This document shows positions 1,107-16,369 of a stretch of DNA of 36,051 nucleotides, in pieces. The notes beneath the pieces are model-generated. The model was given only the letters and a program-made list of their open reading frames with translations. It made no database searches and was not told the DNA's origin. Source of the DNA: a virus; IMG/VR virus record IMGVR_UViG_3300044613_001397, positions 1-36,051 of that record. One strand, given 5' to 3'. Positions within the stretch are counted from its first letter, which is position 1. Each line of letters begins with the position of its first letter. A program made the translations under genes and the position numbers.

Positions 1107-1652
1107 ATGAAAGACTTCAAGGACTTACGAGATCACGCATTCGCTTCACTTCAAAGGCTATTCTTTGAAGAGTTTGACGCTGAACTCACAGAGTCCAAAA
1201 TTGTGCTTGATATGCCAAACTTTACTCGTGAAGATGTGATTGCGTATCTTGACGAAGAAGGCATTGAATGGGAAGAAAAGGACGGCGTGATTGAGATTCT
1301 TGATCCTGTTGAGCAAGCAGACATTGAAGTTGAGGTTGAAGCAGAAGAAGCCGAAGAGATCGAAGAATCGGTCGAGTTTGAAACCGAGATGTTGGGAGAA
1401 GCGTCGGCCAAGCGAAAAATCGTGGTTCGTAAAGGAAAGAAACGAATCATTTTCAAATGTGGTCCAGGAATGATGAAGCGTGGTCCTCGTTTGTGCGTTC
1501 GTCGCCCAGGATCACAACTACGAAAAATGAAACTGCGTTCCAAGCGTTCGGCTCGCAAGGCTCGCTCCAAGCGTAATGTGGCAAAGCGTAAGCGTAAACT
1601 GTCTATGCGTAAGCGGCTGTCGTTCGGCTTGCGTCCACGCAAGCGTAAGTAA
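1107..1652 (+). CDS. Putative internal head protein with acidic propeptide and basic DNA-binding tail
   Basis: This 181-residue protein has two opposite halves. Residues 60-98 hold 17 Asp/Glu out of 39. From residue 99 to the end there is no acidic residue and 38 of 83 are Lys or Arg. The join reads MLGE-ASAK. In T4 the prohead protease gp21 cuts after Glu in (L/I)xE sequences, and T4 internal proteins carry an N-terminal piece removed in this way. I infer that L96-G97-E98 is such a site and that the released basic part binds packaged DNA. Two cysteines (119 and 130) sit in the basic half. No homologue was checked. Alternatives are a scaffold or a nucleoid-binding early protein. The start at 1107 follows the previous stop by three bases. 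Confidence 0.75.
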   Translation: MKDFKDLRDHAFASLQRLFFEEFDAELTESKIVLDMPNFTREDVIAYLDEEGIEWEEKDGVIEILDPVEQADIEVEVEAEEAEEIEESVEFETEMLGEASAKRKIVVRKGKKRIIFKCGPGMMKRGPRLCVRRPGSQLRKMKLRSKRSARKARSKRNVAKRKRKLSMRKRLSFGLRPRKRK

Positions 1653-3399: not shown

Positions 3400-4617
3400 A
3401 TGAATTCATTTATTCCATTTTTGGCAGAGTCCCTGAAAAGCACAGGTGGCAAAAATGTCCACTTGGAGCACCTTGAAGACGAAATCTTTAACGGTGGCTT
3501 TGCAGGGTTTTCAAAGGCTATGAATTCCCTGCGTGGAGTGGTGCAGTCACTACACGGCAACGATACTGTGCCATACGATATTTCAGTCAAGTGGGACGGT
3601 GCTCCTGCTATTATTCTGGGAACTGACCCTGAAAGCGGCAAATTCTTCGTGGGCACCAAGAGCGTGTTTAACGCCACACCCAAAGTAAACTACACCGAAG
3701 CGGACATTGACCGCAACCATCCCGCAGAAGGCTTGAATGCTAAACTCAAACTAGCGTTGAAGAACTTGAAGGGGTTACGCATCAATACGGTACTGCAAGG
3801 CGATCTGCTGTTTGACCGCGAATCACTCAAGCGTGAAACCATCGACGGCAAGAGATACCTTACATTTCAGCCCAACACAATTAAATACGCAATTGATCCG
3901 CAGTCGCCTTTAGGCAAACGAATTGCTGCTGCCAAGATTGGAATTGTGTTTCATACCGAATACGGCGGAAACACCATAGCCGATCTAAAGGTCAAGCAGT
4001 TCAACCCAAGCCTTGCAGGACTAGCAAAAAGCCGTGTAGTGTGGTACGACAACGCCACTTTCCGTTTCTCCAAGGGCGACGGGTTATTCTCTGCACACGC
4101 AATCAACGACATCAACTCAAAGATTGATGATATTATTCGTGATGGAATTGCTCTTCGCTCTGCCATGAATAGTGTTGCACGAAATGTGGCAGTTGTTCAG
4201 GAAATAAAAACCTATTTCAATGGAATTATTCGTAGTGGACGCGAATTAGGAGACACCAACGAATTGCTCTCATTTGCGTCTGCTCGTGTGGAAGCAAAAC
4301 GCAAAGAAAAGAAAGCAAAGATTGCTCCCAAAACTCCAACGCCAACACTAGATTTTATTCGTAACAACCGCAATCAGATCAATAGTCTGTTTGCACTACA
4401 TAATCGTGTGGCACAACTAAAGAAGTTTGTGCTGTCAAAACTTACAACCTTGAGCACAGAGTTTGGAACATTTGTGCAAAAGGGTGACAAGTATGTGGCA
4501 ACGGTTCCTGAAGGATTCGTAGCCATAGATCGGTTGAGTAACGATGCAGTCAAGTTAGTTGACCGCATAGAGTTCTCAAAGGCTAATTTCACGATTACAA
4601 AATCGTGGAAAAAGTAA
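3400..4617 (+). CDS. Conserved phage protein with KxDG nucleotidyltransferase-like motif
   Basis: A 405-residue protein resembling a family I know from T4-like cyanophages (I believe DUF6267, not checked), with the shared pieces HLEHLED (residues 21-27), VKWDGAPAI (63-71) and VLQGDLLF (131-138). K64-W-D66-G67 fits motif I of covalent nucleotidyltransferases (ATP-dependent DNA and RNA ligases, capping enzymes), where the Lys carries AMP or GMP. QGDLLF sits where motif III would be, but with Asp in place of the usual Glu, and a KVK at about 197-199 could serve as motif V. A clear motif IV is not seen, so ligase activity is inference. I chose ATG 3400 because a GGGG at 3388-3391 is well spaced; an in-frame GTG lies at 3391. 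The C-terminal third is helical and lysine-rich. Confidence 0.75.
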   Translation: MNSFIPFLAESLKSTGGKNVHLEHLEDEIFNGGFAGFSKAMNSLRGVVQSLHGNDTVPYDISVKWDGAPAIILGTDPESGKFFVGTKSVFNATPKVNYTEADIDRNHPAEGLNAKLKLALKNLKGLRINTVLQGDLLFDRESLKRETIDGKRYLTFQPNTIKYAIDPQSPLGKRIAAAKIGIVFHTEYGGNTIADLKVKQFNPSLAGLAKSRVVWYDNATFRFSKGDGLFSAHAINDINSKIDDIIRDGIALRSAMNSVARNVAVVQEIKTYFNGIIRSGRELGDTNELLSFASARVEAKRKEKKAKIAPKTPTPTLDFIRNNRNQINSLFALHNRVAQLKKFVLSKLTTLSTEFGTFVQKGDKYVATVPEGFVAIDRLSNDAVKLVDRIEFSKANFTITKSWKK

Positions 4618-7494: not shown

Positions 7495-9639
7495 ATGATT
7501 AAAAAACAAGGCAACAAGTTTGTAGTAACGAACAAGGCAGGCACTAAAGTATTGGGAACACATCCGTCCAAGGAAAAGGCACAGAAGCAACTCGCAGCAA
7601 TTGAGATATCAAAGGCAAAACACATGCACGAAAACAAATCATTCAAGGCGTTCCGCAGCACTCTTAACGAGAGCGAGTACAGTGAAGTTCTAACAGGTTA
7701 CGGCAACCGCTCTGCTCACAAGGACGACGCAGGCTTGCACCACCTACAGTCTGCGGGTGCTCTTGCTGGCATCAATGCCATGCTTGCCACCATTGGCAAG
7801 GGCACATACCTTGATCCTAATGAAGCGTTCCTCAAAATGAAGGTGCGTCTCAATGTGGTGCAACTAGATTTCGCGTGGAAGCCAGGTTCGTGGGACGGTG
7901 GCGTGGGTTCCTATGATATTCCTGTGGTACAGTTTGGTCGCGTTGACGGCTACGACGCACAAACAGGACAGATTCGCTTTGACGGCAAGGCTAACCCCAC
8001 AGGCGGCTACACCGAACTCAACCTGCATGTGGATGTGGAACTTACTCCTGAGTCCTTGTATGTGGTTAGTGCCAAACTCACTCCTGCCGCGACTGTAGCA
8101 GAAGAGGTTGAAGTTGCAGAAGCCAAGAAGGGTTCTGGATTAATGACTGATATTCACAATCCAAAGGGCAAGGCTGTTATGAACAAGAGCGGAAAGGTTC
8201 TTAAGTATTACGGCAAAGAGCGTTCAGCAATTAAGCACGCCACAACAGGCAAGGCTGTAAAGGAAGAAGTGGATGTAAACGAAGACTACCAGACTCCTAC
8301 TCGTGAACGGGAAATGGATCGCAAAATAGCCAAACACGATGATGCTGCTGATAGTGCGTACAGAACTAGAATGACCAAATACGGCAAAGTTGCTGATCGT
8401 GCCTCTAAATCAGAAGACAAGCACGACAAGGCAATTGCTCGTCTTCTCAAGCGTTCCCAAAAAGAACAAGAATCGTCCCGTACTTACGGTCGTAGCGGCA
8501 AACTTGTAAAGCGTGGTAGCCGTGCAGAGGTAAAGGAAGAAACCGAGCAACTTGACGAGACAATGACTCGCAAGCACTTCCAACAGGTGGCTGATCTTAT
8601 CAAGTCCCATCCTGATGCCAAGAAGCGTGAAGAACTAGCCAAGCATCACAGCGAAATCTTCAAGAAGTCCAACCCCCGTTTTGACGAGACTCGCTTCCGC
8701 AAGGCTTGTGGAGTGGGTGGATGCCAAAACGAGAGCGTGGAGCAGATTGACGAAGCAGGCGCAGCCAAAATGGCTCGTATGGGATACGCATACGACCGTG
8801 CACGAGTCGGTGCTCGTGGTGTTCTGAATCCTGAACGCAAACAGCAAATGCGTGATGCGTACTACAAGCAGCGTGAAAAGGTGGAAGCCAACAAAGCCAA
8901 GCGAGTTGCAGCAGGAACTTTTGACAAAGCGCGTGAACTAGAAGCCCTCCACAAGAAGTACGAAATTCGTCGTGCCAAAAATGCTGTAAATGAAGAGATT
9001 GAGCAGATTGACGAGTTGAGCAAGGCAACCAAAGACGCATATGTTGCCAAGCGTGGTTCGCAACTGTCGTCCATGTTGAGCGGACACACCCGTGGCAAGC
9101 AACTCACAGGCAAGCAGCAAGCCAATGCCGTGAAGGGCATCAAGCAGGCTATGGGCGGGAGCAAAGATAAATCCAAACTCCCCAAACTACTGCCAAGAAT
9201 GGCTACATTTGCATTTGGAGAAGAACTAGTCGGCGGTCAGAAGAAGTTAGATGTGAACAAGAACAAGCGTCTTGATGCACAGGACTTCAAAATGCTCCGT
9301 GCGAAGAAGAAGGCTATGAGCGAAGCCAAGAAGCCCATGATTAAGATTGGTCTAAACCCCAACAAGAAAATTGGCTACGAGGTTGCTTCAATCGGAGCAG
9401 GTGGCAAGAAGACTGTAGAGAAGTCTGTTGACTACACCATGCCCCATGTGAAGCGCGACACCAACAAGAAGGGTGTAAACGAAGCGAAAATGAAAATATG
9501 GAGTCCCCGCTTGGACAGACTAATGGCAAACCGTGACGCGATTCGCAGCAGACCCAAGAAGAGCATCCTGACCCAAAAGGTACAGGACGGCAAGAAGATG
9601 GGTGCTGCTCGCCCAATAGCCAAGTACGAGGGCAAGTGA
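7495..9639 (+). CDS. Large modular protein with three EQ(I/L)DE motifs and an EF-hand-like loop
   Basis: A 714-residue multi-module protein. The first 37 residues (IKKQGNKFVV...KAQKQLAAIE) resemble a small domain often found in phage proteins. Residues about 60-205 look globular and beta-rich. EEVEVAEAKKG leads into a lysine-rich region. EQLDE (351-355) precedes a helical module ending PRFDETRFRKACG, EQIDE (416-420) a second and EQIDE (503-507) a third. DVNKNKRLDAQD (586-597) has Asp/Asn spacing like a calcium-binding EF-hand or dockerin loop, although position 6 is Lys instead of Gly. ATG 7495 lies three bases after the preceding stop. It may be matured by the prohead protease, like its neighbour. 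No enzymatic motif is visible. Confidence 0.75.
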   Translation: MIKKQGNKFVVTNKAGTKVLGTHPSKEKAQKQLAAIEISKAKHMHENKSFKAFRSTLNESEYSEVLTGYGNRSAHKDDAGLHHLQSAGALAGINAMLATIGKGTYLDPNEAFLKMKVRLNVVQLDFAWKPGSWDGGVGSYDIPVVQFGRVDGYDAQTGQIRFDGKANPTGGYTELNLHVDVELTPESLYVVSAKLTPAATVAEEVEVAEAKKGSGLMTDIHNPKGKAVMNKSGKVLKYYGKERSAIKHATTGKAVKEEVDVNEDYQTPTREREMDRKIAKHDDAADSAYRTRMTKYGKVADRASKSEDKHDKAIARLLKRSQKEQESSRTYGRSGKLVKRGSRAEVKEETEQLDETMTRKHFQQVADLIKSHPDAKKREELAKHHSEIFKKSNPRFDETRFRKACGVGGCQNESVEQIDEAGAAKMARMGYAYDRARVGARGVLNPERKQQMRDAYYKQREKVEANKAKRVAAGTFDKARELEALHKKYEIRRAKNAVNEEIEQIDELSKATKDAYVAKRGSQLSSMLSGHTRGKQLTGKQQANAVKGIKQAMGGSKDKSKLPKLLPRMATFAFGEELVGGQKKLDVNKNKRLDAQDFKMLRAKKKAMSEAKKPMIKIGLNPNKKIGYEVASIGAGGKKTVEKSVDYTMPHVKRDTNKKGVNEAKMKIWSPRLDRLMANRDAIRSRPKKSILTQKVQDGKKMGAARPIAKYEGK

Positions 9640-15698: not shown

Positions 15699-16268
15699 TC
15701 AACGCTTTCGTAACTTTACACCAACACCACGCAAAAATCTCTCTGCTCGTTTTTGTTGATCGACATCATCATATCCTGCCATCCATGCGTTGTATTCAGG
15801 AGTTCCCTGTTGTGATTTGTGCCAAGCAGCAATTCGTTTGTTCATATTTTCAAAACCACGATCTGATTTTTTTGTTTCTGCTGCGTGTGCGGCTGTACCC
15901 TTGCGGACAGTTTTGCCACCCTTGGCATATAGGGTTTTTGACCCTACTTCTTTTCTGACTTGTTTATCGTGCTTATCCAATGCTTGGACGGCTCTACGAT
16001 GCTGCTGGTCATTCCCGCTATTCGTTGCTTTTTCTATATTCTTCCACAACTTTTTGCTCTTCTTTTTCGTTTCCTGTGAACGCTCATAGGTCTGCACATC
16101 TTCCAGTAGAGCATTAGGATCAAGTTCTAGTTCTTCACATAGAGCCAACAGCACTTCCTCCAACAGAGCAGTGTACTCCATTGCCTCGTCCAGAGCGGCT
16201 TGTGGGTTTTGGACGCGAGCAATGCTCTCGTTGAGCGAACGGAAGGCATTGGTATTGAATCGGGACAT
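15699..16268 (-). CDS. Late-expressed phage protein of unknown function
   Basis: A 189-residue hydrophilic, mostly helical protein. The middle has YTALLEEVLLALCEELELDPNALLE, a pattern I recall in head-associated proteins of T4-like marine phages. A lysine-rich stretch (about 65-150) and a basic C-terminus (GVKLRKR) follow. I chose ATG 16268 because it has an AAGGAGA site and lies about 20 bases after a perfect TATAAATA late promoter; the longer frame to 16358 would run through that promoter and a terminator. It is a single-gene transcription unit, with terminators on both sides. A virion or head-assembly role is likely from its late promoter, but unproven. Confidence 0.75.
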   Translation of the reverse strand: MSRFNTNAFRSLNESIARVQNPQAALDEAMEYTALLEEVLLALCEELELDPNALLEDVQTYERSQETKKKSKKLWKNIEKATNSGNDQQHRRAVQALDKHDKQVRKEVGSKTLYAKGGKTVRKGTAAHAAETKKSDRGFENMNKRIAAWHKSQQGTPEYNAWMAGYDDVDQQKRAERFLRGVGVKLRKR

Positions 16269-16288
16269 GGTAATTTCTCCTTGTCCTG

Positions 16289-16296
16289 TATTTATA
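16289..16296 (-). promoter_or_regulatory. T4-type late promoter TATAAATA
   Basis: A perfect TATAAATA on the minus strand, 20 bases ahead of ATG 16268 and just after the terminator of the ribonucleotide reductase gene. In T4 this octamer alone is the late promoter recognised by the gp55 sigma factor. Confidence 0.75.
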
Positions 16297-16325
16297 AAGA
16301 AACAACCCCTTGTTACGGGGGTTGT
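16296..16325 (-). terminator. Intrinsic terminator after nrdJ
   Basis: An 8-bp stem (ACAACCCC/GGGGTTGT) with an 8-base loop, then TTCTTT on the minus strand, lies 44 bases past the nrdJ stop. Its T-tract merges with the late promoter at 16289. A second small hairpin (GGAGAT-GCT-ATCTCC, 16332-16346) lies between it and nrdJ. Confidence 0.8.
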
Positions 16326-16369
16326 CGGGCGGGAGATGCTATCTCCTGCGGGGCACAAGCCTGCGAAGT

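Follow-up and report, generated by a model that had tools for sequence, protein, structure and literature searches.

A probable gp68-type prohead core protein with a conserved [LI]xE triplet at its charge boundary, encoded apart from the head genes of T4-like phages

The window, i.e., the complete stretch of 36,051 nucleotides that was analyzed (IMG/VR record IMGVR_UViG_3300044613_001397), is a fragment of a T4-like myovirus genome and encodes a T4-type DNA polymerase (nearest to cyanophages, with about 49% identity), UvsX, a DnaB-type helicase, a primase and ribonucleotide reductase. Neither gp21 nor gp23 was seen in this fragment record. The gene under study (Table 1) is part of a gene order that is conserved in the window's group, namely a 644-aa-type gene, the focal gene, a gene of unknown function and genes for a PD-(D/E)XK exonuclease, a DUF6267 protein and a cytidylyltransferase. 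In a distant group, it follows genes that we take, from sequence likeness, to be of the gp55 and gp47 types. The first-pass annotation had described a protein with two parts of opposite composition, and a recount gave the same figures: residues 60–98 (39 amino acids) hold 17 Asp/Glu and no Lys/Arg and end in MLGE, and residues 99–181 (83 amino acids) hold 38 Lys/Arg and no Asp/Glu. The leader (residues 1–98) carries a net charge of -28 and the module (residues 99–181) one of +38. An antisense open frame of 163 amino acids (window 1151–1642, minus strand) spans the gene and is probably a by-product of its composition.

Table 1. Features of the focal gene; positions refer to the window.
Feature	Position	Strand	Basis
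gp68-like prohead core protein (probable), 181 aa	1107..1652	+	Translation, homologues, profile link to gp68
N-terminal leader, residues 1–29, ending at the second conserved LxE, L27-T-E29	1107..1193	+	
Acidic part, residues 30–98	1194..1400	+	AlphaFold2 and charge count
L96-G97-E98, predicted gp21-type cut site, E98/A99	1392..1400	+	[LI]xE in 89/89 relatives
Basic module, residues 99–181, without Asp/Glu and without LxE	1401..1649	+	AlphaFold2 and composition

Structure prediction with AlphaFold2 on the broader family alignment, A5, yielded a model with a mean pLDDT of 73 and a pTM of 0.37. The module is predicted to consist of a beta-hairpin (residues 102–117), a Cys118...Cys130 loop and a long helix (residues 135–175), with pLDDT values above 90 for residues 101–170. 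Within the acidic part, a small alpha/beta domain is predicted at about residues 32–64 (pLDDT about 60–76 at residues 31–70), followed by an acidic stretch, residues 68–93, predicted to be disordered (pLDDT below 50 at 68–78 and 80–93). Given these values, the putative cut site would lie between a disordered acidic stretch and an ordered module. E98 is invariant in A5. The second LxE triplet, L27-T-E29 (window 1185–1193), separates the N-terminal leader from the acidic domain, and its P3 and P1 residues are invariant in the 13-sequence alignment A4.

Three scans of IMG/VR, which used the protein, an alignment of it and the basic module as queries, returned 17, 62 and 80 partly overlapping loci, respectively, from which 89 viral-metagenome relatives with a readable boundary were compiled, some of them near-identical or from the same contig; locus L071 was left out as its reported match lay outside the frame first read. 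Conservation of the triplet among relatives had been named by the first-pass annotation as a check of its reading, with non-conservation counting against it; the reading withstood this check, as [LI]-x-E stands at the boundary in all 89. P1 is always Glu and P3 is either Leu (72) or Ile (17), while P2 is occupied by ten different residues and P1' by Ala, Gly, Val or Ile. When close copies were removed, the triplet stood at the exact boundary between leader and module in 26 of 26 non-redundant relatives. Shuffling each leader within its own composition places an [LI]xE there by chance in 2–6% of cases per sequence, and a probability summed over the relatives is an upper bound on the evidence, as these share descent. 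What counts most is the contrast between P2, where ten residues occur, and P1 and P3, which do not vary in this way. Leader similarity is almost completely lost across A5, yet the boundary triplet is kept, even in one group whose leader is only 15 residues long (MEQPSETYTLKDLQE/G, the slash marking the boundary; LRE/G in L076, LQE/G in L166 and LME/G in L169).

Leaders of more than 60 residues contain three to nine LxE triplets each, apparently without excess over an expectation estimated from composition, and are given no weight here. No LxE was found within the basic modules of the relatives, so that a protease of this specificity would fragment the leader and leave the module whole. In three relatives, L066–L068, the N-terminus is a 10-residue capsid-targeting sequence of the T4 type, MKSFxx[LI]L[AT]E/A; the window protein lacks an N-terminal leader of about 10 residues ending in [LI]xE, its first LxE being that at residues 27–29.

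In T4, the prohead protease gp21 cuts after L/I-x-E (PMC9026906) and acts on gp22, gp67 and gp68 (PMC9026906, PMC7411985, PMC9958956). Among the relative records, all four longer than 90 kb and the 20-kb G018 encode an S77 (gp21-type) protease and gp23; neither was detected in the other, shorter records searched. The N-terminus of the relatives' gp21 reads MKLITET...LTE, and four of five gp23 sequences carry MLVE or MLTE about 50–60 residues in and FLTE or LLTE near the start; these N-terminal LxE sites of gp21 and gp23, among them LITE, ILTE, MLVE and FLTE, are in line with an L/I-x-E specificity of these phages' own protease. The gp21-type cut between E98 and A99 that had been predicted earlier is thus well supported by the LxE in every relative and by the protease and gp23 genes in the longer records, and cleavage at E98 is likely.

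Searches with the protein, the module and two relatives by tblastn against cultured phages gave no match, probably because BLAST masks Lys/Arg-rich sequence, and profile searches of whole genomes of cultured phages were therefore performed, with a module HMM and then with A5. Stenotrophomonas phage YB07 gave a single match (E 2.7e-5 with the module HMM, 2e-10 with A5), as did Vibrio phage 1.255.O (E 1.6e-6 with A5). The matched genes occupy the gp68 slot in both phages, between portal and gp21 and directly upstream of gp21, the place that gene 68 has in T4. In the YB07 protein, an acidic leader (net -30) and a module (net +30) meet at the boundary SIME/V. This protein belongs to phrog_33445, which the focal protein P0001 matches as well (E 1.6e-4), and it gave further matches to the T4 gp68 family, phrog_1049, and to phrog_3503 ("head scaffolding protein"). 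In turn, phrog_3503, to which the slot genes of Det7 and 1.255.O belong, matches two modules of the family studied here (E 4e-5 and 3e-4).

Composition by itself makes Lys/Arg-rich sequences match, and composition-keeping shuffles therefore served as controls for the hhalign scores. The focal family scored 52.2 against YB07 (best of 150 shuffles, 32.1), the T4 gp68 family 52.3 against YB07 (best shuffle, 24.3) and the focal family 50.4 against the T4 gp68 family (best shuffle, 31.5). With the broader alignment A5, the score against the T4 family fell to 42.8 vs. 37.1 for the best shuffle, which makes for a modest direct link; the connection to T4 gp68 runs via YB07, on which it mainly depends, and the Ackermannviridae. 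Foldseek against BFVD gave two top matches with a borderline E value of 4.4e-3, one of them named "Prohead core protein" (prob 0.98). Foldseek against the PDB gave no match, sequence searches of Pfam, NCBIfam and the PDB returned nothing useful, and no DNA-binding family or fold was found by the family, sequence and Foldseek PDB searches. The family HMM did not match T4 gp68 and detected no homologue in T4, P-SSM2, S-PM2, Syn19, HTVC008M, Melnitz-3, DSL-LC02, phiM12, Cr30 or Atu_ph07; a match in cyanophage S-CAM3 was dismissed (E 0.15).

Homology to gp68 supports the earlier assignment to head assembly. On the other hand, the accompanying remark that no described protein was known to have exactly this charge-switch design is not supported, since T4 gp68 and its homologues likewise have an acidic N-terminal half, [LIV]xE at the boundary and a basic C-terminal half. 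In T4 gp68 and eleven homologues, the triplet with its invariant E67 lies where the acidic half meets the basic one; the family is phrog_1049, with phrog_14114 in Vibrio phages. The T4 boundary reads LNE/F and the basic half ends in KRRKALGLS, sharing with the end of the focal protein a Lys/Arg-rich stretch and GL. T4 gp68 differs in the absence of the Cys-containing beta-hairpin and in an acidic domain that is smaller than and different from that of the focal protein. The whole module, including K..GK(R)..KC.PG....C, is shared with the slot protein of Menderavirus YB07 (QBP06208), and the whole module is likewise shared with those of the Ackermannviridae (Det7 gene 10 and Vibrio 1.255.O_009). 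At the boundary, IME/V in YB07 and ISE/A in 1.255.O conform to the [LI]xE of the focal family, whereas Det7, to which the family HMM gave no direct match, has RMDE with Met at P3. The focal gene thus encodes an unannotated gp68 relative, and its design, being already present in a known protein, is not a new kind.

Unlike T4 gene 68 and the slot genes of YB07 and the Ackermannviridae, which lie within the head operon (in T4 between genes 67 and 21), the focal gene is found elsewhere. In the relative records G003, G001, G004 and G018, a gp67-like gene lies immediately next to gp21, a search of this gap for a hidden gp68 found none, and the gp68 slot of S-CAM3 is likewise empty. We read the focal gene as a gp68 that has presumably moved away from the head operon.

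T4 gp68 counts among the three core proteins of the prohead (PMC9026906, PMC7411985, PMC9958956), with about 240 copies in the prohead core and none in the mature head (PMC9026906, table 1; PMC9958956), and most cleavage fragments leave the head (PMC7411985). It is listed as not cleaved in table 1 of PMC9026906, and the texts of the reviews have it cleaved or degraded (PMC9026906, PMC7411985, PMC9958956); they also conflict on whether it is essential (PMC9026906, table 1 and section 2.5). Since T4 gp68 is absent from the mature head, a role in the scaffold core is favored over DNA packing in the virion. The focal protein is probably a prohead scaffold-core protein of the T4 gp68 superfamily that undergoes a gp21-type cut, the resulting charge change aiding disassembly of the core. 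In the newly made chain, the acidic leader would partly balance the charge of the basic module. The chain would enter the protein core within the prohead, where the very acidic scaffold gp22 (the gp22 of the relatives' phages has long Asp/Glu runs) is the probable binding partner of the module. Once switched on, the protease would cut after E98, with further cuts probable after E29 and inside the acidic leader, so that the leader would be shredded and the LxE-free module would outlast the protease. We infer that the change in charge helps the core to fall apart and empty ahead of DNA entry.

As an alternative of low probability, which is the reading of the first-pass annotation (a timed switch for DNA packing or injection), the freed module might stay in the mature head as a protamine-like protein, bound to the packaged DNA and perhaps injected with it, after having been masked by the acidic leader until the cut. 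This would agree with modules of net +34 to +44 among the relatives listed, which the protease would leave whole, and with the neighboring block of genes whose products carry T4-type capsid-targeting leaders, the class of proteins that T4 packages and ejects. Zero copies of T4 gp68 in mature heads (PMC9026906, table 1) and the departure of most fragments (PMC7411985) argue against it, as do the failure to find a DNA-binding family or fold and the short-leader relatives, which have no real acidic mask. T4 IPI–IPIII and Alt are gp21 substrates with the 10-residue leader cut pattern of L066–L068, the likeness seen being confined to this leader, and the T4 IPs lose a short leader only and stay in the head, unlike what is predicted for the cut at E98. 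It is similarly improbable that cleavage by gp21 converts a core protein of balanced charge into a free polycation remaining with the genome and that such a switch is general and has been overlooked in T4-like gp68; if true, this would be a phage counterpart of the adenovirus-type maturation of a basic core protein.

Conservation of E98 and L/I96 for folding of the module, with no cut taking place, is quite unlikely: the site does directly adjoin the ordered module, but P2 accepts ten residue types with P3 swapping only between Leu and Ile, residues 68–93 are predicted to be disordered, and [LIV]xE is likewise retained in the T4 gp68 family, where another sequence follows it. Very unlikely, too, is a nucleic acid-binding protein of the infected cell, acting outside the head with its acidic part as an intramolecular nucleic-acid mimic, which would suit a gene lying outside the head operon and adjoining nuclease and nucleotidyltransferase genes but leaves the invariant [LI]xE unexplained and conflicts with the position of the cultured-phage homologues between portal and gp21.

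Little is understood of what gp68 does in head assembly, and the family described here, which is large and environmental, reveals what selection keeps, namely a predicted protease site fixed exactly where the charge flips. It raises the idea that the change in charge upon cleavage either drives the core apart or results in a polycation that remains in the head. It would also fill the apparently missing gp68 of one aquatic group of T4-like phages, in which the family profile can be used for annotating this gene.

Among the non-redundant neighbors of the focal gene, some of which may be paralogues, an [LI]xE ends exactly at residue 10 in 14 of 121 (pattern M[KNI]xFRxYLTE/), the background being mostly 0–3 per position, and in 1 of 154 genes elsewhere. 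Genes with such capsid-targeting leaders occur at L094:7831–12240 (G003), L019, L033, L039, L044 and window 3400–4617, and most of the leader-bearing neighbors have no family match. The DUF6267 gene of the window starts with MNSFIPFLAE/S, a T4-type capsid-targeting leader. Judging from these leaders, the block around the focal gene looks like an unrecognized locus of head-packaged, possibly ejected proteins. At window 7495–9639 and 15699–16358 (minus strand), leaders of this kind, MHENKSFKAFRSTLNE/S and MSRFNTNAFRSLNE/S, would result from possible internal starts. Finally, the gp67-like protein of G004 (L100:14459–15148, minus strand) is extended to 229 amino acids and has LDE before a Lys-rich segment (EQLDE/VSPPDMEKMTGSKHTKASFAKQYGKRGKS...), another LxE-to-basic junction in a core protein.
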